From: Acidicapsa dinghuensis
Lineage (GTDB): Bacteria; Acidobacteriota; Terriglobia; Terriglobales; Acidobacteriaceae
Reading direction: 5' to 3'
Length of the DNA stretch: 64,000 nt
Assembly: GCF_025685685.1 (NCBI RefSeq)
Contig: NZ_JAGSYH010000003.1
Coordinates: 434,001 to 498,000 of the forward strand
Positions 51,978 through 62,805 of this stretch are shown here, in pieces. Under the pieces are notes generated by a model, which did no database searches, was not told the origin of the DNA, and was given only the letters and a program-made list of their open reading frames with translations. Both the position numbers and the translations under genes were made by a program. Within the stretch, counting starts at the first letter, position 1, and the number at the start of each line of letters is the position of its first letter.

Positions 51978-52556
51978 TTAAAAGCTGGGGTGGTCTGCCT
52001 GATCCATCGTGATTGCCTGGATCACGACGGGGGTGGAAGAGATAGGTTTGGTCTGGATAGGCTGAACCATTATTGGGTTATCTGCTATCGGGCTAAGGGC
52101 TGCGGACGCGGGTTTGGAGATGGCGAGAGCATCTTCGGTATGGAGTGCGACAAATTGAATGAGCAGACGGTCTTCTGAAGTGAGCTGCGGTTGGCCTTGT
52201 TCAGGTTGGGTGGCACGGTGAGCGCGGTGAAGGATGACCGGTTCCGCATGAGGAGTGACGGCGTGTGTTCGCGTTTGCGCGGGCCTTGGAATCGGCTGTG
52301 ATGACGCCGCGCCTTGGACAATTTCCTGCTGCTTCCGGTTTGGGTAAGTGCTGGTTGCGATGAATGCAATGATTGCTGCGAGGGAGACTGCTGCCGCTGT
52401 TACCCAGAGAAAATTGCGGGCCGAAAGGTGCCGTGAGGCGTGCCCGGAGGCACGGGCAAGTATGCGGTCTTCAAGGCCGAGGCGCGGTTTGGCAGAAGAG
52501 TAGGACCGGAGAGCCTTATCGAGCAGATGGTCGAAGCTTTCTGGCGACTGAGTCAT
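51978..52556 (-). CDS. Probable anti-sigma factor, single-pass membrane protein
   Basis: The 192-residue protein has a short cytoplasmic part (about 1-45, FDHLLDKALRSYSSAKPRLGLEDRILA), one transmembrane helix at about 48-66 (FLWVTAAAVSLAAIIAFIA), and a Pro- and Gln-rich periplasmic tail. Its start overlaps the end of the ECF sigma gene by 41 nt and AAAGGAG lies 6 nt upstream, so it is translationally coupled. Gene order and topology fit an anti-sigma factor that holds the sigma factor at the membrane. The usual zinc-binding HxxxCxxC motif is absent, so the assignment rests on context. Confidence 0.62.
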   Translation of the reverse strand: MTQSPESFDHLLDKALRSYSSAKPRLGLEDRILARASGHASRHLSARNFLWVTAAAVSLAAIIAFIATSTYPNRKQQEIVQGAASSQPIPRPAQTRTHAVTPHAEPVILHRAHRATQPEQGQPQLTSEDRLLIQFVALHTEDALAISKPASAALSPIADNPIMVQPIQTKPISSTPVVIQAITMDQADHPSF

Positions 52557-53121
52557 GCGCGCGCTCCTTTCTTGTTGAATGGGTTGAGTTTTCCCATTGA
52601 CGGCGCAGCTGTTCGCGGGCGGTGTGGACGCGGCGGCGGACTGTGCCTTCGGGGATGCCGAGGATGGCGGCGACCTCGGGTGACGTTAGCTCTTCGATTG
52701 CCATGAGGACGAGCGGCTGGCGTAGCTTTTCGGGCAGGCGGTCGATTAGTTCATGGAGGGTGGATTCGGCCTGGCGGTGGATGACTTCTTGCTCGGGGCC
52801 GGCGGAGTTTGCGGGCAGGTTGAACGGGAGCTCGCCGGCAGGCTTTGGGCGGTGGCGGATGGCGATGCGCCATGTGACGCGGGCGAGATAGGCGCGGTGG
52901 TCGGCGATCTGGGGCCAGCCTGTCGTGCGGTAGAGCTGGAGGAAGGCTTCCTGGACAATGTCTTCAGCGTCATCGCTGTTGCGGGTGACGCTGAGGGCGA
53001 TCTTGTGCATGAGGCTTGCATGAGCGGTGACGATTTCCGCAAAGGCGGAGCGACTCGCTTCCTCAGTCTCTGCCGGTTTTCGGAGAGATCCCAGCGTCGT
53101 CATCGTCAGCGCGTTTTCCAT
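52516..53121 (-). CDS. ECF-type RNA polymerase sigma factor
   Basis: The 201-residue protein has sigma region 2 at about 22-92 (AFAEIVTAHASLMHKIALSVTRNSDDAEDIVQEAFLQLYRT, binding RNA polymerase and the -10 element) and region 4 at about 118-172 (LIDRLPEKLRQPLVLMAIEELTSPEVAAILGIPEGTVRRRVHTAREQL, binding -35). Regions 1 and 3 are absent, as in group 4 (ECF) sigma factors. AGGTGAG lies directly before the ATG. It leads an operon with a coupled membrane protein and a secreted protein. The target promoters are unknown; the VWFA-related gene upstream is a candidate. Confidence 0.92.
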   Translation of the reverse strand: MENALTMTTLGSLRKPAETEEASRSAFAEIVTAHASLMHKIALSVTRNSDDAEDIVQEAFLQLYRTTGWPQIADHRAYLARVTWRIAIRHRPKPAGELPFNLPANSAGPEQEVIHRQAESTLHELIDRLPEKLRQPLVLMAIEELTSPEVAAILGIPEGTVRRRVHTAREQLRRQWENSTHSTRKERAHDSVARKLRPSAR

Positions 53122-53379
53122 CTCACCTAGTAAAGAGCAGGAAATCGGAGAAGCGTTCGGATATTCGGAAATATTTTGTTCGTGGAAGGTGAATCGCCTG
53201 TGTTCTTCACAAAGCCGGGTCGGAAATCTGTTTGTTATTTGTCAGACCGCGGATTGTGCTGCGAAGGATGGGCAAGGCAGAGCAGTAACAGTGCGATGGC
53301 TCGCGAGAGGAGTCATTGGAACGGATGCGATGGCCGAGGCACAGCGCAGCTCAGGTTCCGAGAGCCAGATTCCGAGGAG

Positions 53380-56304
53380 TCAGGGTTCCGAGATGGTTGT
53401 GCCGGTCAGAATTCTTGACGTGGATACGAAGCGATGGAAGTCGCGGAATCGAATCTGGTTCAGCTCCAGCGTAGATCGGAGACTTCCTCTCCGCACAACG
53501 ATCTGCGCTCCGACCGGAAGCAGGTATTGCTGGTTGTTGATGGAGACGAAGTCGTAGTCTGCACTGACAAGAGACTCGCGGATGAGAGATTTTTTGGGCA
53601 CATCGTCTGCGATCTCAGTGATGCGCCGGACCACGTGAGTAGCGCTGTCGATATAAACCATACCGTGATAACCGACGAGAAAAACCTCCATGGGTCCGGA
53701 GCGCAGCGTTAGATTCGAGTTTTCTTTGGCGACGCGATACTTGAAAACCTGTACGGTTCCGTCACCGAGTGCGTCACTTTCAACCCACGTGATCTCCGCT
53801 TTAGCGGCTGGCCGAAACAAGCCGCGAATGAGGCCGCCGAAGACTCCGGCGCTGGTGACGCCGCCTCGCGCGTCGGAGCTGCTGTCACGGTTTCTCTTTT
53901 GGTCCTTCTCGAGCTGCTGGAATTCCCAGTCTTCTTGATGTTCGAAGTAGGTGAGCTGGCCGGAAAGTGTATCGATGTGTTCCCAGTTTTTTTCATTGTG
54001 GGAGCCGACAAATCGCTCGGTGACTTGGTGGCACATGAAGTTCGGCAGAGAATCCCAATATGCATTTGCATATTGCGCTGCTTCGGCAAGGAGCGCTTTG
54101 AGTTCATCGTCGGAGGGGCGTTGAACAGGATTGGGTGAGACGGCAATATTCAACGGACCGGAAGGCCGCGCGACAGATTCGACGCTTGAAGTGTTGCCTG
54201 CGGTGTCCGCTTCAGCGCCCTCCATACCGCTGAGCGTGAAAGAAGTGTCCGACTCCGCGCTCTTCCCATCCTGGGTGAGCAGAGCTTCAACCTGGTAGGT
54301 GCCATCGGTTGCAGGATTTAGAGAAAAGCTGCCGAGGTACGAATAGTACTCTCCCCCGCGGACTTGTCGCGCCAATAATGGGGCGCCTCCTAATACTTGT
54401 CCATCGCGGAGCACCTTTATCTCAAGCTTTGCCGGTTGCGGTGAGAGCGGGTTTTCGTGTACTGCGAAAAAAATGGAAACGTTGCTGTTGCCTGCTGCGA
54501 GGGCTCCGGAGAGATTTGGCATAATGCGAGTTTTGCCATCACGCAGTGGATCGGTTATATCGAGATCGCTGGAGAGAACAGGATCGGTCCGCCGCACGAG
54601 GATCATATTGCCGAGAGAGGGTGCGCTAGACCCGCTCGACACCTCGAAGGAAATCTGTTTCGCCGCAGCTTTGCCGCTCGTGGTGTCGACGATCAAAACT
54701 TCGAGGGTGTATTTGCCCGGTGGCAGAATGAAATGACGTTGCAGCGAGATGACTTCGTTGCTTTTGACGCTTGCCTGATGGGAACCGATACGCTGCGGGG
54801 TGTCGGAACTGAAGTGCGCCGCGACGGCGCCGGTCTCGTCTTTCACATTGGCGATCATCGCCACATGTGCCAGTGAACCGGGAGAGTTTGCGTCTTGCTG
54901 TAGATTCAGGTTTTCGACCGGAACCTCAATCGCCAGCGTACTTCTCCTGCCATCCTCACTATCACCCATATCAAGAACCGTGGCTCGGAAAGGGAATTGG
55001 GCAGGCAAGGGCGACTCTTTGAGCTGTTTCAACAGTGGCAGCTCAAACGGTTGCAGGCTACTGCCGTCCGCCGAGGGAGGAGGCAACGCAAGATAGGCAG
55101 TCTGGGTACGAATCTTGAGCCCTTTGCGAAGTGGGGTGACTACGAGCGGATGAAGCTTTCCATCGTATTCCTCGCTTCTGGGAAGAAAGGAAGCCTCGTA
55201 ATATGTCGACATATCTCCGGTGAGTTGGCGCATCGATTTCAAGTTGTCGCCATTGAGATAGATGCCGCCCGTTGCTTCGGCCATGCGCTTCAAGTCTGTA
55301 TCGATGGGTGCATCATCCACGACTTCCATGGTGCTTTCGCCAGTGCCGTAGTCACGGAAGCTCAATGCGCTGGCGATAGCCGCGCTGCCGGGATTTGTGA
55401 GTATTACCTTGGATCCATGATGGCCGAAGGAAGACACATCGACCACATCAACGCGGACGTTAGCCTGATTGGCTGCACCAGCGATCGACTCGATTGCCTG
55501 CGTGCCAATATCACTGATCTGATCCTGGCGCATCGAACTGAGATAGATGATCGTTTTTCTTCCAGCCAGATTTTGCTGTGATTGCACGAGGGCCAAAAGA
55601 GAGGAGAAAGATGGCAAGATATGTCGGTCCTGCGCAATGCGTGTCGAGTTGCGAAGCGCGGCATAGATTGACTGCGCCTGCAAGCGGTCATGCGTTGCAA
55701 CCCTCTTGCCTTCCAGATCGGCTCCGCTGAGCGCGACCGAGATTATCTCTCTCTCGGAAATCGCCGCATGATCCTTGTCTCTGGATGCAATCGGCCCTGT
55801 AGCTGCTTCAATGGCGGCTTTTACCGCGTTCAGATCGGAAGTGAAGCTTTGCTGAAGATGCAGCCTTGAATCAATGCTGAGCACCGAAAAGTCACATCCG
55901 CTTTCAGTGAGCAGTGTAAGGATTTTCAAGGCTGCATCTCGCGCCGTTGCGATCCGCGACGAACTCTTCTGCGAGTGCGCGTCTTTCTCCGGTGGGAACG
56001 GATCGAAGACAAAGCTGACGAGTTGCTTTGCATCCTTGTGCTGGTCGACAAGCCGAAGATTGTCTAGTTTGACGGGCACACCGTCTTCCGTGATGGTCAA
56101 TTCGTCTGGCTTGAGGTCGAGAACTGGCTCTCCTCTCTTGTCATGTGCAATAAGCGAGAGTTGCACGGCGTCGGCAGAGCCAGATGAACTCGGCGAAGCT
56201 GGAGCTGGAGCCGAAGCCGCTGACCCCTGTACCGCGCTTGCTAGAAAAAGCGAAGCGGAAAGAGCGACGGCAAGCAGCACACTCAATGTCAAGCGGTTGC
56301 TCAT
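53380..56304 (-). CDS. VWFA-related acidobacterial protein, secreted
   Basis: The 974-residue protein has a signal peptide (about 1-35, from the ATG at 56304). It matches the VWFA-related domain family common in Acidobacteriota: an N-terminal beta segment (VQLSLIAHDKRGEPVLDLKPDELTITEDG) and a von Willebrand A-like fold at about 85-320 (KQLVSFVFDPF, KTIIYLSSM). The MIDAS metal motif is not clearly conserved. Residues 410-700 are beta-sandwich repeats. Residues about 730-974 form a separate outer-membrane-lipoprotein-like beta domain (SLPNFMCHQVTERFVG to GAQIVVRRGSLRSTLELNQIRF). Function unknown; adhesion or periplasmic scaffolding is suggested. It lies 258 nt upstream of the sigma-factor operon on the same strand. 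Confidence 0.82.
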   Translation of the reverse strand: MSNRLTLSVLLAVALSASLFLASAVQGSAASAPAPASPSSSGSADAVQLSLIAHDKRGEPVLDLKPDELTITEDGVPVKLDNLRLVDQHKDAKQLVSFVFDPFPPEKDAHSQKSSSRIATARDAALKILTLLTESGCDFSVLSIDSRLHLQQSFTSDLNAVKAAIEAATGPIASRDKDHAAISEREIISVALSGADLEGKRVATHDRLQAQSIYAALRNSTRIAQDRHILPSFSSLLALVQSQQNLAGRKTIIYLSSMRQDQISDIGTQAIESIAGAANQANVRVDVVDVSSFGHHGSKVILTNPGSAAIASALSFRDYGTGESTMEVVDDAPIDTDLKRMAEATGGIYLNGDNLKSMRQLTGDMSTYYEASFLPRSEEYDGKLHPLVVTPLRKGLKIRTQTAYLALPPPSADGSSLQPFELPLLKQLKESPLPAQFPFRATVLDMGDSEDGRRSTLAIEVPVENLNLQQDANSPGSLAHVAMIANVKDETGAVAAHFSSDTPQRIGSHQASVKSNEVISLQRHFILPPGKYTLEVLIVDTTSGKAAAKQISFEVSSGSSAPSLGNMILVRRTDPVLSSDLDITDPLRDGKTRIMPNLSGALAAGNSNVSIFFAVHENPLSPQPAKLEIKVLRDGQVLGGAPLLARQVRGGEYYSYLGSFSLNPATDGTYQVEALLTQDGKSAESDTSFTLSGMEGAEADTAGNTSSVESVARPSGPLNIAVSPNPVQRPSDDELKALLAEAAQYANAYWDSLPNFMCHQVTERFVGSHNEKNWEHIDTLSGQLTYFEHQEDWEFQQLEKDQKRNRDSSSDARGGVTSAGVFGGLIRGLFRPAAKAEITWVESDALGDGTVQVFKYRVAKENSNLTLRSGPMEVFLVGYHGMVYIDSATHVVRRITEIADDVPKKSLIRESLVSADYDFVSINNQQYLLPVGAQIVVRRGSLRSTLELNQIRFRDFHRFVSTSRILTGTTISEP

Positions 56305-56651
56305 TCGATTCCACACTTGAGATTAGCTCTGATGCGGCCAGAAGTACTCATTTTCACCGCGCCCATGAAGAAAACACCCCTTCTGGTCCCGAATCCTGAC
56401 CGAGTTAGGCATTAAGTAATGTGCAGGTTTTTCATTCGGGAAAGTATAGCCCACAAATTCAGGAACGGAGTGGCAAGCGCAGATCCATCGAATTTGTGCG
56501 TTCGCGAGCTGCAAGACTTTTTGTGCATTACGGGACGGCGCGAGCGAGATCTGTCAGGAAAACGACATCGAGGAATTGATTGGATCGCATCTGTTACCCA
56601 TTGGTTATGGTCACGCGTGACCACGGAATCCAGGGCTTGTTGGTTGGCGAA
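56305..56651. other. Intergenic region between the VWFA-related gene and the BlaI promoter
   Basis: About 350 bp between divergent genes. Short overlapping frames on both strands look like chance. No promoter for the VWFA-related gene is evident. The AT content rises toward the BlaI operators. Confidence 0.4.
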
Positions 56652-56671
56652 CGAACTATTAATTTCATAAT
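56652..56671 (+). promoter_or_regulatory. Operator copy 1 of the BlaI/M56 system
   Basis: CGAACTATTAATTTCATAAT differs by one base from the copy at 56705. Its inner ATTA and TAAT form a short dyad. Its last base is the first base of the -35 element, so a bound repressor would meet polymerase from upstream. Confidence 0.65.
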
Positions 56672-56699
56672 TGACAAGCGGTGCCGGTAGCCGTATAAA
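56671..56699 (+). promoter_or_regulatory. Consensus sigma-70 promoter of the BlaI/M56 operon
   Basis: TTGACA (56671-56676) and TATAAA (56694-56699) are separated by exactly 17 bp, close to an ideal housekeeping promoter. Initiation is expected near 56706, within operator copy 2. A promoter this strong normally needs a repressor, which the next gene supplies. Confidence 0.8.
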
Positions 56700-56704
56700 C
56701 ATTT

Positions 56705-56724
56705 CGAACTATTAATTTCTTAAT
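56705..56724 (+). promoter_or_regulatory. Operator copy 2 of the BlaI/M56 system
   Basis: CGAACTATTAATTTCTTAAT repeats copy 1 with one change and contains the dyad ATTAA-TTTC-TTAAT. It covers the expected transcription start. Start-to-start distance from copy 1 is 53 bp, about five DNA turns, so two bound dimers would lie on the same face of the helix. Confidence 0.65.
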
Positions 56725-56745
56725 CGCTGGATGCGGAGGAAAGCG

Positions 56746-57138
56746 TTGGCAAGGAAAAAGTCATTCCATCTCACTGAGGGCGAGTTGCCGCTCATGGAAG
56801 TGCTTTGGAAAAAGGGGCGCGCGACTGTGGGTGATGTCGTGACGGCATTGCCGGCCGATCCGCCGCTTGCCTATAGTACGGTGCTGACCACTCTGCGCAT
56901 CCTCGAGTCCAAGGGCTACCTGCGGCACACGAAGGAAGGGCGAGCCTTCGTTTATGAGCCCATCATTGTGCAGGAAGAGGCCAGCCGCAAAGCGCTTGGC
57001 TACCTGGTGAACCGTTTTTTTGGAGGCTCCTGCGAGCAGTTGGTGGTGAATCTGCTGAAGGAAGAAACGATCAGCCGGGCGGAATTGCGACGAATCAAAA
57101 AGATGATTGCCGAAAGCGAGCAAGGAGAGAAGAAATGA
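56746..57138 (+). CDS. BlaI/MecI-family transcriptional repressor
   Basis: A TTG start at 56746 is preferred because GGAGGA lies 5 nt upstream; the ATG at 56731 has no ribosome site and would place GGAGGA inside the gene. The 130-residue product is a BlaI-type winged helix (FHLTEGELPLMEVLWKKGRATVGDVV, YSTVLTTLRILESKGYLRHTKEGRAFVYEPI) with a C-terminal dimer domain (FFGGSCEQLVVNLL). BlaI repressors bind as dimers and are inactivated by proteolysis triggered by an M56 peptidase. The operon and operators fit autoregulation. Its stop overlaps the next start (ATGA), indicating tight coupling. Confidence 0.92.
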   Translation: MARKKSFHLTEGELPLMEVLWKKGRATVGDVVTALPADPPLAYSTVLTTLRILESKGYLRHTKEGRAFVYEPIIVQEEASRKALGYLVNRFFGGSCEQLVVNLLKEETISRAELRRIKKMIAESEQGEKK

Positions 57139-60023
57139 CCCATGTCAATTTTGCGATGACAACTCTTCTCAACGGAATCTGGGAAGGAACACTGCTGGCA
57201 GCGGCGATGTGGCTCTTTCTGAAACTGTTTCCCCGATTGAACCCAACAACTCGCTTTACGGTTCTTTGGGTAACACTGCTCTCTGTCCTGGTGTTGCCTC
57301 TCGGGCCTCTTACGTCGAGAGTGACCCCCGCATACGCGCCGATGTCAACGAACTTGCCTGTGATTACCGCAGCGAACCAGCTCATGAGCGTAGCGGCCGC
57401 GCCGGATACGATTCAGCATCCCACGGCCAGCCAGCGGCACACGAAAGCGGCCTCTGAATTGCATCCTGTTGCAGCTCCGAAATCAAAGCCACTGCCATTG
57501 TTGAAGCAAGAGCCTGCAGTTGTTGAAACGCCGAATACCGCCCCCCGGACGGCATCGCCGGTGGTAACGGCCGTTCCGCACCCGCTAATTCGTATCCATT
57601 CTGCGAGCATTCTGAGCGCGCTTGCAACTATGTGGGTGTTCCTTTCTTTTGTGTTGCTGGCGCGTCTCGGATTTGGCCTTTTGAAGCTGCGTAAATTAAA
57701 GGCAGAGGCCGCAGAGGTCTCAACAGAGTGGCAGCTGCGTTTGGAAGACCTGAGCCGAATCAATGATGTGCGCCGGCAGACGCAATTGCTCGTTTCGAGC
57801 CGCATTGCCGCGCCCATGTCGCTCGGATTTTTCCATCCGGCGATTCTGATTCCGCAGGCTCTTTTCGATACTCTTTCGGACTCGGAACTTGAGCATGTTG
57901 TGCTGCATGAACTCGCCCACCTGCGGCGTCGCGATGATTGGACCAACCTCGCGCAAAAAGTGATTGAAGCCATGCTGCCGATTCAGCCGGCGATCTACTG
58001 GGTCGGTCACCAGATGACGATTGAGCGCGAGATGGCGTGCGATGACTGGGTTATTGCGGCAACTGGAACGGTTGAGCGATATGCGGCTTCGCTCACGAGA
58101 GTGGCTGAACTCTCGCAATGGAGACACGCGGGCATCCTGGCGGCAGGCGCAACAGGCAACCGCTCACAACTTTTCACCCGTGTTCATCACATGCTGGACA
58201 AAACCCGGAACGCGGCTCCGAAGCTCGCGCTGCGCCCGTTGGCTGCGGCGATTGCAGCAGCAGGAGTCTTGATCTACGTGGGTGTACGGACCCCGCAGAT
58301 GATCGCCTTCGCGCAGAATACAGCGCATGACAACAGCCATCCGCAAGTAGCAGCGCTTACCCCACTGCAACCGCTGCATGCTGCACAGGTACAAGTTCCA
58401 GTACCGGCTCATAACGTTGTGCTGGAGCAAGGGACGCAGCTCTCGGCGCTAATTCCCGAATCTTCAGGCCAGCTGCCCCCGTCACCACTATCACCACTTT
58501 CTCCTGGCTCGCCGGAGTCGCCCTTGGCCGCTGTTGCTCCGCCCGCACCAATGACACCAGTCGCTTCACAACAAAGCGGCGAGACGCACATGGAGATGAC
58601 GACACGCAATGGAATGACCTCGCTCAGTGTGAAGATCGACGGCTCCATTGAATTTACTGATGACGACAGTGATGTGAAGTCGCTCTCGCCGGGCGGCCGC
58701 TTCCGCATAGAAGACGGAAACTTATTTTCCGCGCGTGTTTATGACGTAAAGGCAGACTCGGCGGGGAATCTTACAAAGACATACTCGGTGGGCGGGTCTG
58801 TGAAGCCGCTGGATGCCGAGGGGCGGGCATGGCTTGCGCGGTTGATGCCGCAGATGATTCGAGAGAGTGGCGTTGGAGCGGAACGCCGTGTCGCTCGCAT
58901 ACTCCGTCAAGGCGGTCCGCAGGCGGTAATCACTGAAATTGGTTTGATTCACAGCGACGGATCGAAGCGCATCTATCTGGAACAACTGTTCTCACAGGCA
59001 ACATTGAACATCGAGCAGTTAAAAGAGGCCGCCAGACTGATCCGTGGAATCTCCTCGGATGGCGACAAAGCGCAGGTGCTCACCACCGTGGACGGAAAAT
59101 ATTTCACTGGCGACTTGCGCGGGAATTTGTTCGACGCGGTTCAGAGCATCAGCTCGGATGGCGACAAACGCAGGGTGCTTTCCGACATCCTCAACAAGGA
59201 CGCAGGAAATATCGATACGCTTCTCAGCGTGGCGAGGACAGCCGAACATATCTCCTCCGACGGGGACAAGGCCCAAGTGCTGATCGAGATGGCAAACCCA
59301 TATCGTGCGAATGGCGGCGTCGCGATGGCGTATTTCGAGGCGGCGAAATCGGTGTCATCGGATGGGGATCACGCGCGTGTCCTGCTGGCCATGCTGGCAG
59401 CGCATGGAGACGATCACGACACGCTGGCTCGCACACTGCGGTCGGCCCAGAAGATTTCTTCCGATGGGGACAAAGCGCGCGTCCTCAAAGAGGCAGTTGC
59501 ACGCTACAGCGATGACGAGATCATTCGCAAGGCCTTCATCGACGCTGCCGACTCCATTTCGAGCGACGGCGATCACCAGCAGGTGTTAGTGACGCTTGTT
59601 CACCGGCAGGGACTGAGTTCAACCACGCTGGGCGGAATTGCTCATTCAGCGCAGCGCATTTCGTCCGATGGAGATAAGGCTCGCGTTCTGGTCGAACTTG
59701 CTGGAACGAATGTCGAACCTGTCCGCGACGATTTCTTTGCCGCAGCCGACAGCATCAATTCGGATGGCGATCACAGCCACGTTCTGACGGTCTTGCTCGA
59801 CAAGCCAGGCACTTCTTCGGCGATGGCGATTGCGGCGATTCAGTCGGCAACTCGTATTTCTTCCGACGGAGACAAGAGCCGGGTATTGCTGGATGCGGCC
59901 GACCGGTATTCGAAAGATCCGGCGGTAAATTCAGCACTGCGCAAAGCGGTGGAAAGCGTGCACTCCGATGGCGAATATCGATCGGTGATGACCGAAATTA
60001 TGCGGCACGACCAAAACCATTGA
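57135..60023 (+). CDS. M56 (BlaR1-like) membrane peptidase with eleven 34-residue SSDGD repeats
   Basis: The 962-residue protein starts with M56 peptidase organisation: membrane helices near 8-28, 38-58 and 155-178, then the zinc site HELAH (His258, Glu259, His262) with a third ligand in IEREMACDD (Glu297 or Glu299), and a further helix near 365-385. A Pro-rich linker follows. Residues 606-962 are about eleven copies of a 34-residue repeat, each opening with SSDGD(K/H)xxVL; neighbouring copies are 102 bp apart, with single steps of 99 and 96 bp. This repeat domain takes the place of the penicillin-binding sensor of BlaR1. It should lie in the periplasm. By analogy, a signal there activates the cytoplasmic peptidase, leading to loss of BlaI. 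The ligand is unknown. Confidence 0.88.
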   Translation: MTHVNFAMTTLLNGIWEGTLLAAAMWLFLKLFPRLNPTTRFTVLWVTLLSVLVLPLGPLTSRVTPAYAPMSTNLPVITAANQLMSVAAAPDTIQHPTASQRHTKAASELHPVAAPKSKPLPLLKQEPAVVETPNTAPRTASPVVTAVPHPLIRIHSASILSALATMWVFLSFVLLARLGFGLLKLRKLKAEAAEVSTEWQLRLEDLSRINDVRRQTQLLVSSRIAAPMSLGFFHPAILIPQALFDTLSDSELEHVVLHELAHLRRRDDWTNLAQKVIEAMLPIQPAIYWVGHQMTIEREMACDDWVIAATGTVERYAASLTRVAELSQWRHAGILAAGATGNRSQLFTRVHHMLDKTRNAAPKLALRPLAAAIAAAGVLIYVGVRTPQMIAFAQNTAHDNSHPQVAALTPLQPLHAAQVQVPVPAHNVVLEQGTQLSALIPESSGQLPPSPLSPLSPGSPESPLAAVAPPAPMTPVASQQSGETHMEMTTRNGMTSLSVKIDGSIEFTDDDSDVKSLSPGGRFRIEDGNLFSARVYDVKADSAGNLTKTYSVGGSVKPLDAEGRAWLARLMPQMIRESGVGAERRVARILRQGGPQAVITEIGLIHSDGSKRIYLEQLFSQATLNIEQLKEAARLIRGISSDGDKAQVLTTVDGKYFTGDLRGNLFDAVQSISSDGDKRRVLSDILNKDAGNIDTLLSVARTAEHISSDGDKAQVLIEMANPYRANGGVAMAYFEAAKSVSSDGDHARVLLAMLAAHGDDHDTLARTLRSAQKISSDGDKARVLKEAVARYSDDEIIRKAFIDAADSISSDGDHQQVLVTLVHRQGLSSTTLGGIAHSAQRISSDGDKARVLVELAGTNVEPVRDDFFAAADSINSDGDHSHVLTVLLDKPGTSSAMAIAAIQSATRISSDGDKSRVLLDAADRYSKDPAVNSALRKAVESVHSDGEYRSVMTEIMRHDQNH
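58950..60000 (+). repeat. Tandem 34-codon repeats in the M56 gene
   Basis: The SSDGD-like motif begins at 58950, 59052, 59151, 59253, 59355, 59457, 59559, 59661, 59757, 59859 and 59961. Eight of ten steps are exactly 102 bp. The residue after DGD alternates largely between Lys and His, suggesting a two-repeat (68-residue) super-unit. The first and last copies are degenerate (HSDGS, HSDGE). Confidence 0.9.
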
Positions 60024-60157
60024 TGGCTTCAGCAGTTTTTATTCGAGACCTGCTCAGGCGAGATTGCCATTACGCGCAATGGTCTCAAATTCTGTATTTA
60101 GGTTTCGAGTATCGTGCCCCACAGGCAAGCGCTACCAACCCATTCCAACAAGTACGG

Positions 60158-61315
60158 TTACGCGGTCAATTCGCTCATCTTTTTACCAACGGCGCCGGGG
60201 CCGAAATTGATATGAGCGTCTTTAATCGAAAGTCCGACAACTTCAATACGCTTCAGATCGCGTGTTCCGATTCCGGCTTCTTCCGCAAGACGCAGTGAAT
60301 TGTCGCCCCGGATGAACGGAGAAGAGCCGCGCTCCGCATACGTATCGTAGCCCATCACCGCCATCCCTACGGCGTCCACGTTGACTGCGTTGCGGCCGGC
60401 AATGATCACGCCCGGTGTCATCTTTTCCAGGCCCTGAAGCCACGGACCCTCTCCGCCGCGCACGGTCTCGACGCCGTCAACGATTGCGAGATCGATGGGC
60501 CGAATACCGTTCTGATCGACCAGAATGCGCGGAACCCGATAGCCCGGGTCGCGCGGCGAATCGGGATGCAGCTCGGCATCGACTACCGACGGAGCTGGCG
60601 TCGTTCCGCTGTGCAGCACAGGGCCGCGCTCTTGCGTCGGCCGCTCGTTCCCGTGGGGTCCACAGTCACCGCCATAGAGTGAGCAGGGCGTGTTGCCGAA
60701 GTTGTTCTTCATCGTCATGGTCACGCCTGCAATCCAATGGTTTTTCAGCTTGGCCATCGAAACGTATGTGTCGCACTCGAAGAACGCCGGGTTCAGGTGG
60801 TACGCCGGATAGGCGTATCCACCCCAGGGAACGGTCTTGCGCACATATTGCTTGTAGTTGCCGAGGTTCTGCACGTTTTCCCAAACCACAGGCACGCCCA
60901 TGTTGTTGATCGCGTGTACGTCCAGGCCGTAGCGCGCCCACAACGAGAGATCCTGATCGGCAGGGAAGAAGCTTTCAATCATGCGAACGCGCCGCGCACC
61001 CGCCTTGACAAACAGATGCACCGTCGCGGCCACCGACTGCGGATCGGTCCGGTAAGGAAGCTCAGGAGTCAGCGGAAAATACTTCGGGTTCCCTGTGAGA
61101 TTCAGCTTAAGTGCTACGGTTTTCCCGCGCACCAGCTTCTCAATGCCGCCGATCTGATCGAACGCGTGCGAGAGTTGCTGCTCATACTGCGCATAATCGC
61201 GACAACGCACGATCGCGACACTACTCGCTGGAGCGTCAGCCTTCATCAACTCCGGCATGCAAAATGCTCCGAGCGTCGCAGCACCCGTGGTAGCCAGCAT
61301 CTCTCGTCTGTTCAT
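60158..61315 (-). CDS. DUF362 family protein with Tat signal
   Basis: The start at 61315 gives a Tat signal (MNRREMLATTGAATLGAFC) and has GGAGGCGG upstream. The 385-residue protein matches DUF362 (SVAIVRCRDYAQYEQQLSHAFDQIGGIEKLVRGKTVALKLNLTG, then MAKLKNHWIAGVTMTMKNNFG and AIVDGVETVRGGEG). Its biochemical role is not established; some relatives are fused to ferredoxin domains, but no 4Fe-4S motif is seen here. It is convergent with the M56 gene and 149 nt downstream of the ManD-like gene on the same strand, with which it may form an operon. Confidence 0.83.
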   Translation of the reverse strand: MNRREMLATTGAATLGAFCMPELMKADAPASSVAIVRCRDYAQYEQQLSHAFDQIGGIEKLVRGKTVALKLNLTGNPKYFPLTPELPYRTDPQSVAATVHLFVKAGARRVRMIESFFPADQDLSLWARYGLDVHAINNMGVPVVWENVQNLGNYKQYVRKTVPWGGYAYPAYHLNPAFFECDTYVSMAKLKNHWIAGVTMTMKNNFGNTPCSLYGGDCGPHGNERPTQERGPVLHSGTTPAPSVVDAELHPDSPRDPGYRVPRILVDQNGIRPIDLAIVDGVETVRGGEGPWLQGLEKMTPGVIIAGRNAVNVDAVGMAVMGYDTYAERGSSPFIRGDNSLRLAEEAGIGTRDLKRIEVVGLSIKDAHINFGPGAVGKKMSELTA

Positions 61316-61464
61316 CTCTTCCGCCTCCTCCACAACATGCTACTCGGATATGTTCCGTCACGCGCGCCATATTTGATATCCAGAGGATCCTTTGGTAAGC
61401 CGCTCGCTGTAGCCTTCTTTCCAGAACTTTCGCCTCACGACAGGACGCTCTGAACCCGTGGGTT

Positions 61465-62805
61465 CTACTGCTTGATCACCGTTCCATCCCGCTTACGAAT
61501 CTCGCCCCATCCACCATTCAGATGGTTCGGGCCGTCCGTGAATGGATACTTTGCCGCGAGTTTCTCGTCAATCTCGATTCCCCACCCCGGCCTCTCGTTC
61601 ACCCAGAAATAGCCATCCTTCATCTCTGGACACCCTTTGAAGACTTCCTGTGTCGCGGCGTTGAAGGGCGTGTATTCCTGGATGCCGAAGTTATAGCTCA
61701 CAATATCCAGAGTTACGTTTGCCATGTGTCCCACCGGCGAAACATCCCCCGGTCCGTGCCACGCCGTCTTCACACCATACTGCTCAGCCAGGATCGCGAT
61801 CTTTCGGGCAGGTGAAAATCCGCCAACCTGCGACACATGGCAGCGGATATAGTCGATCAGCCTCTGCTCGATAAGCGGTTGCCATTCATGAGGATTGTTG
61901 AAGAGCTCTCCCATCGCGATGGGAGTAGCGCATTGCGCGCGTATCTGGCGGAAGTAGTCGTTGTCTTCAGGCGAAAGCGGGTCTTCGAGGAAAAACATCC
62001 TGAATTTTTCCGCCTCTTTGCAAAACTGCACCGCCTCGTTCGGAGCCAGGCGTTCATGCATGTCGTGCAACAGCTCGACTTCTTCACCAAGCTCCGTTCT
62101 GCAAATCTCTAGCAGCTTAAGCGCGCGGCGCATTTGATACGCCGGCTCGAACAAAGGTTTGTCGTGAAGCGCCTTCAACGGAGCAGTGTTCGTGTGCGCC
62201 GAGCCATAGCCTGCCATCCCCGGCAGCCCGACCTGCACGCGGATGTTGCGGAAGCCCTGAGCCATCAGTTTTTTCGCGGAAGCTACCACATCTTCAAATT
62301 CAGGTCCGTCTGCGTGAGCGTAGCAGTCCACCGCCTCCCGGCACTTGCCTCCAGCCAACTGATACACCGGCATCCCTCCCTGCCGCCCCTTGATGTCCCA
62401 TAGAGCCTGATCTATTCCGCTCAGCGCATTGTTAAGCACCGGACCATTCTTCCAGTATGAGCTGTCATAGCAACTCTGCCAGATATCTTCGATCCGGTCG
62501 GTCGTCTTGCCCAGCAGAAACGGCTTCAGATAGCGTTCCACGGCTGGTTTCACCAGGTCAGCTCGCTGCGTAAAAGTCGCGCAGCCATAGCCGTACAGCC
62601 CATCCTGATCGGTCGTGATTTTTACTACAGTCAACCGCGCGCCAGCGGGTGCACACTCAATGACGCTAATGTCTTTGATACGAGGCGATGCCATGCCCCG
62701 CGTTGCTTGCGCCAACTGCTCCTGCGCTCGAACAGCAGGCGCCGCCATGCCCAGCAAACCAAGGCCGCCCATGGACTTCAATAGATCACGCCGATACATT
62801 GACAT
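61465..62805 (-). CDS. ManD/RspA-like enolase-superfamily dehydratase with Tat-type signal
   Basis: The 446-residue protein begins with a twin-arginine signal (MSMYRRDLLKSMGGLGLLGMA). The mature part is an enolase-superfamily enzyme with an alpha+beta cap and a TIM barrel. Probable metal ligands are Asp in LLHDMHERL, Glu in FFLEDPLSPEDN and Glu in PIAMGELFNN. His in TAWHGPGDVSPVGH and in DMHE could act as acid/base. The pattern is that of the D-mannonate dehydratase (ManD)/RspA group, which makes 2-keto-3-deoxygluconate from sugar acids. That product would feed the kinase-aldolase operon at 24765-26890. Activity on mannonate is not proven by sequence. The DUF362 gene lies downstream. Confidence 0.84.
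   Translation of the reverse strand: MSMYRRDLLKSMGGLGLLGMAAPAVRAQEQLAQATRGMASPRIKDISVIECAPAGARLTVVKITTDQDGLYGYGCATFTQRADLVKPAVERYLKPFLLGKTTDRIEDIWQSCYDSSYWKNGPVLNNALSGIDQALWDIKGRQGGMPVYQLAGGKCREAVDCYAHADGPEFEDVVASAKKLMAQGFRNIRVQVGLPGMAGYGSAHTNTAPLKALHDKPLFEPAYQMRRALKLLEICRTELGEEVELLHDMHERLAPNEAVQFCKEAEKFRMFFLEDPLSPEDNDYFRQIRAQCATPIAMGELFNNPHEWQPLIEQRLIDYIRCHVSQVGGFSPARKIAILAEQYGVKTAWHGPGDVSPVGHMANVTLDIVSYNFGIQEYTPFNAATQEVFKGCPEMKDGYFWVNERPGWGIEIDEKLAAKYPFTDGPNHLNGGWGEIRKRDGTVIKQ

Follow-up and report, generated by a model that had tools for sequence, protein, structure and literature searches.

A probable self-regulated BlaI/M56 repressor-protease operon with a predicted solenoid sensor in Acidicapsa dinghuensis

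The window analyzed here is a stretch of 64,000 nucleotides from the soil acidobacterium Acidicapsa dinghuensis (assembly GCF_025685685.1, contig NZ_JAGSYH010000003.1, positions 434,001 to 498,000); unless a contig is named, coordinates are those of the window. Between 56652 and 60023 it carries overlapping genes for a BlaI-type repressor and a membrane metallopeptidase of the M56 family, preceded by a promoter that is bracketed by two nearly identical repeats. These two genes probably form an autoregulated switch of the BlaI/BlaR1 kind, in which the repressor would act on the repeats and the protease would act on the repressor. The arrangement of the repeats, their conservation in related operons, and a correspondence between repressor helices and operator sequences over 59 BlaI loci support this interpretation.

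Promoter and candidate operators

As the original prediction described, two 20-bp direct repeats (56652-56671 and 56705-56724) that agree in 19 of 20 bases lie 53 bp apart on either side of a near-consensus promoter, which is read directly from the sequence at 56671-56699 as TTGACA (-35 element, 56671..56676, + strand), 17 nucleotides, and TATAAA (-10 element, 56694..56699, + strand). The program promoter scan of the window does not list this promoter, because the scan accepts only a second hexamer that ends in T. The 20-bp repeat has two matches in the window, compared with 0.01 expected from shuffles. A search of the 6.17-Mb genome with up to three mismatches returned two forward and no reverse matches, both at this promoter (reversed-pattern control, 0 and 1 matches).

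The repeats were originally taken as direct-repeat operators; the repeats stand, and the first is better read as a dyad that goes beyond a plain direct repeat. Operator O1 (56654..56672, + strand) is an imperfect 19-bp dyad, AACTATTAATTTCATAATT, which has 2 bp in common with the -35 element. Its arms pair at 7 of 9 positions in the window and at 9 of 9 (a perfect dyad) in genome G082, with a range of 7-9 over four operons. Operator O2 (56707..56725, + strand; AACTATTAATTTCTTAATC) covers the predicted transcription start and is less symmetric than O1 (5/9 arm pairs in the window); it contains an inner ATTAA-N4-TTAAT. A perfect 16-bp palindrome, TGGTCACGCGTGACCA, is also present at 56608-56623, about 30 bp upstream of O1; the best dyads listed for the three orthologs do not include it.

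Orthologous operons were identified in G082 and G273 (BlaI identities of 82% and 81%) and at locus L101 of an Acidobacteriaceae metagenome-assembled genome, where the M56 protein is 65% identical over residues 1-958. The M56 gene of G273 is cut by the contig end (480 residues, 45% identity). Persistence of the repeats in close relatives was the test that the original prediction had set itself, and the window and all three orthologous operons retain both sites, at a separation of 51-54 bp. The core AACTATTAATT occurs in 8/8 sites (O1 and O2 of the four operons), and mean pairwise identity is 0.90 for O1 and 0.89 for O2, compared with 0.46 for the spacer and 0.28 for the 40 bp upstream. The distance from O1 to TTGACA is identical in all four operons; O1 of G082 reads AACTATTAA-T-TTAATAGTT and runs into TTGACA. 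In each of the four, the repeat pair is better than 60/60 shuffles. This generic repeat-pair test covered 16 loci, and in L105 and L107, too, no shuffle (0/60) was as good. A chance repeat was rejected on the basis of the shuffles, the genome-wide search, the repeat-pair test, and conservation among orthologs.

The same cores are present in seven distant operons, mostly from Acidobacteria (L102-L106, L108, and L109), 37-38 bp apart and with the second core at the expected -10 position. We tabulated 11 operons, consisting of the window, G082, G273, and eight of 13 search loci (L101-L106, L108, and L109). All 11 have TTGAC at O1, in each case 11 bp downstream of the TAATT of the first core. L107 and L110-L113 were excluded from the table because they are without the same core pair; L107 has a different pair, 58 bp apart, and L111 a weak pair, 52 bp apart.

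Among the sequence data, the strongest argument for identifying the repeats as BlaI sites is the link between the recognition helix of the repressor and the class of operator, which track each other over 59 BlaI loci (61 loci in the set, of which L017 and L061 were dropped without a BlaI match; G082 is outside the set, and locus sets may include duplicates among genomes). Loci with class A helices (VLTT-type) have AACTA..TAGTT in 38/40 cases at no more than one mismatch, 34 of them exact, the two misses being L107 and L111. Class B helices (YSxVRxM) go with an exact TGCTA..TAGCA (8/8), and class C helices (VQTMLN) with an exact TCCTA..TAGGA (2/2). At up to one mismatch, the B and C motifs are absent from all class A loci and the A motif from all class B and C loci, and the nine loci with other helices have no common upstream motif. 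Among 1180 shuffled upstream regions, the A, B, and C motifs were matched exactly in 2, 2, and 0 and with up to one mismatch in 38, 37, and 43, respectively. This link would make the targets of unstudied acidobacterial BlaI/M56 pairs predictable. Other M56 operons with repeat-bearing proteins (L060 and L062-L068) have TGCTA..TAGCA dyads near the -35 element, though arranged differently.

Repressor, membrane protease, and C-terminal module

The blaI-like gene (56746..57138, + strand) encodes a repressor of 130 amino acids with a match to PF03965 (108.1 bits against a cut-off of 22.6, covering residues 14-127 of the open reading frame (ORF) counted from ATG 56731) and with MecI and BlaI structures among its PDB matches. 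Although ATG 56731 lies in the same open frame, the start is most likely TTG 56746, after a Shine-Dalgarno-like GGAGG (56735..56739, + strand), because TTG is common to the window and the three orthologs, and seven distant homologs have ATG at the aligned codon. Also in favor of the switch, the gene has a nonsynonymous divergence (dN) of 0.10-0.12 and a synonymous divergence (dS) of 1.4-1.7, the latter near saturation. The receptor protease BlaR1 cleaves BlaI between Asn101 and Phe102, and Phe after the scissile Asn has been termed almost invariant in BlaI (PMC9834060). In the present repressor, VVN-LL aligns with this bond, so that Asn is kept and Leu stands in place of Phe; Asn is conserved at the cleavage position in 11/12 aligned homologs. 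The genome has ten PF03965 genes, several of which have their own dyads near a TTGACA-like box (by eye). Repressor classes with their own operators could allow the ten BlaI-type repressors to run in parallel.

The second gene (57135..60023, + strand) overlaps blaI by ATGA and encodes a BlaR1-like M56 metallopeptidase of 962 amino acids (PF05569, 114.2 bits, cut-off 31), in agreement with the gene assignments first proposed. Residues H258, E259, H262, and E299, comprising HExxH and the aligned Glu, are the same in 11/11 homologs and align by position with BlaR1 residues 201, 202, 205, and 242, the last of which (Glu242) we take to be the third zinc ligand. His201 and Glu202 of BlaR1 are named in the literature. 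In a fold search, the part made up of the transmembrane (TM) segments and the protease aligns with BlaR1 (8exs_A) at Z 22.6 and a root-mean-square deviation of 2.9 over 249 aligned residues; the first non-BlaR1 row of the same search has Z 15.7 and falls on the C-terminal solenoid. Four hydrophobic stretches start at residues 11, 41, 158, and 364, where the full-length structural model has helices, consistent with four membrane passes. By this topology, the loop between TM2 and TM3 would be the counterpart of the BlaR1 extracellular loop. The loop and the disordered linker after TM4 are the least conserved parts of the protein.

The original prediction also stated that the peptidase has a repeat domain in place of a penicillin-binding sensor, and profile searches and the structural model agree. 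No Pfam match to a penicillin-binding (transpeptidase or class-D) domain was found at E<=1 in the M56 protein, and its alignment to BlaR1 ends at BlaR1 residue 339. The C-terminal part (coding positions 58578..60020, + strand) is predicted from an AlphaFold2 model and the repeat register to be a beta domain followed by an alpha solenoid of eleven repeats of ~34 amino acids, which are helical, spaced 32-34 residues apart, and each contain SDG. The module spans residues ~482-962 of the protein, of which roughly 482-560 make up the beta domain. Modeled alone, this module has a mean predicted local distance difference test (pLDDT) score of 92.4 and a predicted template modeling (pTM) score of 0.81, and it is probably periplasmic. 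Profile searches with it found nothing in Pfam at E<=0.01 or in NCBIfam at E<=1. Fold searches, which bear mainly on the solenoid and barely cover the beta part, returned generic helical repeats (best Z 13.8, with many close), and Foldseek template modeling scores for the solenoid were <=0.34 among the matches listed.

The repeats show higher conservation than the protease part in comparison with G082 (78% and 62% identity, respectively) and slightly higher conservation in comparison with L101 (75% and 72%). At E<=1e-15 the module is present in 4/119 genomes of the phylum, including this one. G411 has it in the same frame as an M56-like part. In G478 (L143, 1042-2199, - strand) it is a separate ORF of 385 amino acids with an apparent signal peptide and a sigma-factor-like ORF nearby (by eye), and in G468 it is a separate ORF of 350 amino acids; the module therefore also exists apart from M56. 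Other genomes of the family likewise contain M56 relatives with repeats. Judged from titles, abstract openings, and open-licence texts, no BlaI/M56 pair with a beta domain and solenoid as its sensor was found in the literature, which included PMC9834060, PMC7593790, PMC3305447, PMC7253601, and PMC8457756.

The profiles, the fold, and the conserved sites support the proposed function as a one-operon switch of sensor, protease, and repressor. BlaI dimers bound at O1, reaching into the -35 element, and at O2, over the start, would block RNA polymerase at their own promoter. The M56 protein would cross the membrane four times, with the zinc metalloprotease inside and the beta domain and solenoid outside. 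Gain or loss of a periplasmic partner by the solenoid, most likely a peptide or protein, would activate the protease, which would cut BlaI near the conserved Asn at the VVN/LL bond. Cut BlaI would then leave O1 and O2, and the released operon would yield more repressor and receptor. No third gene was found on the same strand before the convergent DUF362 gene. Since the operators are present essentially only here and there is no third gene, the direct output would be more repressor and receptor, and from its sequence the system looks like a closed, self-targeted switch. A bolder version is speculative and, in our view, doubtful: the loop would be closed with its own receptor as the only product, the solenoid would be both sensor and effector, and the beta-solenoid module would be a mobile periplasmic binding device. 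If so, a partner-occupied solenoid would cause more solenoid to be made to hold more partner, and the module would serve as part of an M56 protease in this operon and as a free secreted protein in other settings.

Competing interpretations and genomic context

Several observations weigh against an autoregulated switch acting through O1 and O2. O2 is a poor dyad (5-6/9 arm pairs in all four operons), and its weak symmetry slightly lowers our confidence. An inverted-repeat search of the window gave no pair in the promoter region, so the dyads are not evident from the window alone, and the best dyad near the promoter is the upstream 16-bp palindrome, not O1. Five of the 13 search loci (L107 and L110-L113) are without the core pair. 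In the repeat-pair test, the shuffles that were as good (of 60) numbered 1 in L102, 2 each in L108 and L109, 3 in L111, 4 in L103, 7 in L112, and 15-25 in L104, L106, L110, and L113, and the best repeat pair in L106 and L108 differs from the operator pair. Spacing on the same helical face is unsupported as a general rule; because the cores are 37-38 bp apart in the distant relatives, a fixed helical phase is not general. The helix-class counts are not independent, because the classes were defined after an earlier view of the motifs and the loci share ancestry, and a looser pattern gave L068 both motif tags. In the repressor proteins, the conserved Asn position is followed by Leu, Ile, or Val in 12/12 homologs. 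The full-length model of the protease is only fair (mean pLDDT 75.3, pTM 0.49, with the loop and linker below 50), which leaves the placing of domains uncertain. The TM2-TM3 loop is the least conserved (27-32% identity), and therefore a BlaR1-style mechanism with the loop in the sensor is not favored.

The self-targeting part of the interpretation depends on the distribution of operator cores. At up to one mismatch, the sites at this promoter account for 2/2 in the A. dinghuensis genome, 2/2 in G082, and 2/3 in G273 (reversed-pattern controls, 0, 2, and 0, respectively). At up to three mismatches, there are 15 extra sites in the A. dinghuensis genome, which leave room for weaker regulon sites. 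BlaI might also repress unlinked genes through weaker or single sites, with control of its own operon as feedback, a possibility that we regard as real yet minor. C. thermocellum BlaI_0696 controls three operons (PMC8457756), and one of the 15 sites (C15:26828-26845, L127), the dyad-like GCTAATTTTTTAGTTGA, lies 113 bp upstream of an ExbB-like gene (by eye). However, the 15 sites do not surpass the 20 matches of the reversed-pattern control, and the C15 site resembles the operator of a BlaI paralog, AACTAATCCTTTAGTT, as much as the present operator; it is possibly a target of a BlaI paralog, though within chance. The extra one-mismatch site of G273 (C135:360) also favors a wider regulon, but it is single, and the stretch retrieved around it has no ORF of at least 90 amino acids that covers it or follows closely downstream. 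The search of related genomes that was originally proposed recovered the repeat upstream of related M56 operons, and genome searches at up to one and up to three mismatches revealed no convincing regulon member beyond the operon itself. An AT-rich 18-base pattern had one match in each viral contig among the matches listed, which is uninformative.

A sensor of cell-wall or beta-lactam stress like BlaR1/BlaI, with the repeats replacing the penicillin-binding domain, would be consistent with the BlaR1 fold and the BlaI repressor, and a BlaR1 homologue of M. tuberculosis also has no sensor domain (PMC9834060). We consider it improbable, given that no transpeptidase or class-D match was found at E<=1, that no third gene belongs to the operon, that the neighboring genes searched are of VWA and DUF362 type, and that the solenoid matches generic helical-repeat folds only. 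It is very improbable that the repeats bind another regulator, or that they have nothing to do with BlaI and arose as a duplication by chance or through a mobile element. In favor of this, the operon is patchy, with BlaI of at least 80% identity in 3/398 family genomes; against it, the sites are ~90% identical compared with 28% just upstream, the operator class tracks the BlaI recognition helix, and the window neighbors are absent from the stretches around the orthologs.

Apart from the operon, the genes profiled were those of the extracytoplasmic function (ECF) sigma factor, VWA, and DUF362 neighbors. The sigma factor gene is divergent and lies with the gene for an acidobacterial VWA-domain protein (TIGR03436, 113.2 bits, cut-off 81.25) at 52516-56316 on the - strand. 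Of seven window proteins, only BlaI and M56 were matched around G082, G273, and L101, where the flanks are short (5.9, 9.0, and 6.9 kb, respectively) and the G082 and G273 operons are near contig ends. A 19.5-kb stretch of G169, of the same genus, keeps the DUF362 neighbor (92%) and is without the blaI-M56 pair and the ECF sigma factor and VWA genes. Its DNA similarity to the window starts at 60121 (60121-61839), ~100 bp after the M56 stop, and by this alignment position 60121 is one edge of variable DNA. BlaI proteins of at least 80% identity are found in 3/398 family genomes, this one included. The operon is patchy and seems to move as a unit.

The A. dinghuensis genome also contains a paralogous blaI-M56 pair (L131, C16:113887-117554) with the dyad AACTAATCCTTTAGTT, followed by a gene for an HtrA/DegP-like protease with Trypsin_2 and two PDZ stretches, and this paralog thus has an obvious output. 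The gene order at L107 is similar (by eye).

Comparison with known systems

Like the BlaI/BlaR1 and MecI/MecR1 systems of S. aureus and B. licheniformis, the operon combines a PF03965 repressor and a PF05569 protease in one operon, with four predicted TM helices, a BlaR1-like protease fold, HExxH and the aligned Glu, operators at its own promoter, and a conserved Asn at the repressor cleavage position. It differs in having a beta domain and helical solenoid instead of the penicillin-binding sensor of BlaR1 and MecR1, which would make the BlaI/M56 switch a modular platform whose inside half is kept and whose outside sensor is exchanged. It also has no third gene and has Leu, not Phe, after the Asn, and its operator is of the form AACTATTAA..TTAATAGTT, compared with TACA/TGTA in BlaI and MecI (PMC7253601). 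A linked beta-lactamase or penicillin-binding protein target, a feature of BlaR1/MecR1, was not found in the two-gene operon, and the 20-bp repeat has no other copy at up to three mismatches. Membership among beta-lactam receptors with the BlaR1/MecR1 sensor was rejected, as there is no penicillin-binding domain match at E<=1.

Pneumococcal CopY, of the same repressor superfamily, has the same two-repeat layout with one operator at the -35 element: of its two 21-base repeats, the distal has been proposed to block the -35 element and the proximal to occlude the polymerase (PMC7253601). The partner here is a protease, not a copper exporter, and the repressor has no Cys-X-Cys motif. CopY/CopR membership was rejected, since the translated repressor has a single Cys and scores 64.5 bits with the NCBIfam CopY model (cut-off 121.95).

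The BlaR1 homologue of M. tuberculosis is presumably encoded by the locus Rv1845c. Together with BlaI it provides another example of an M56 protease without the penicillin-binding sensor, and a solenoid goes unmentioned in the available text of the source (PMC9834060). C. thermocellum BlaI_1845 has two inverted-repeat pairs upstream of its own operon and a one-operon regulon with BlaR1 (PMC8457756); that operon has two further genes, whereas none were found here. The two-operator layout has therefore already been described for CopY (PMC7253601), and C. thermocellum offers a precedent for a BlaI regulon of one operon that is preceded by paired inverted repeats (PMC8457756). New in A. dinghuensis are the operator sequence class, the predicted solenoid sensor, and the apparent targeting of the operon by itself only.

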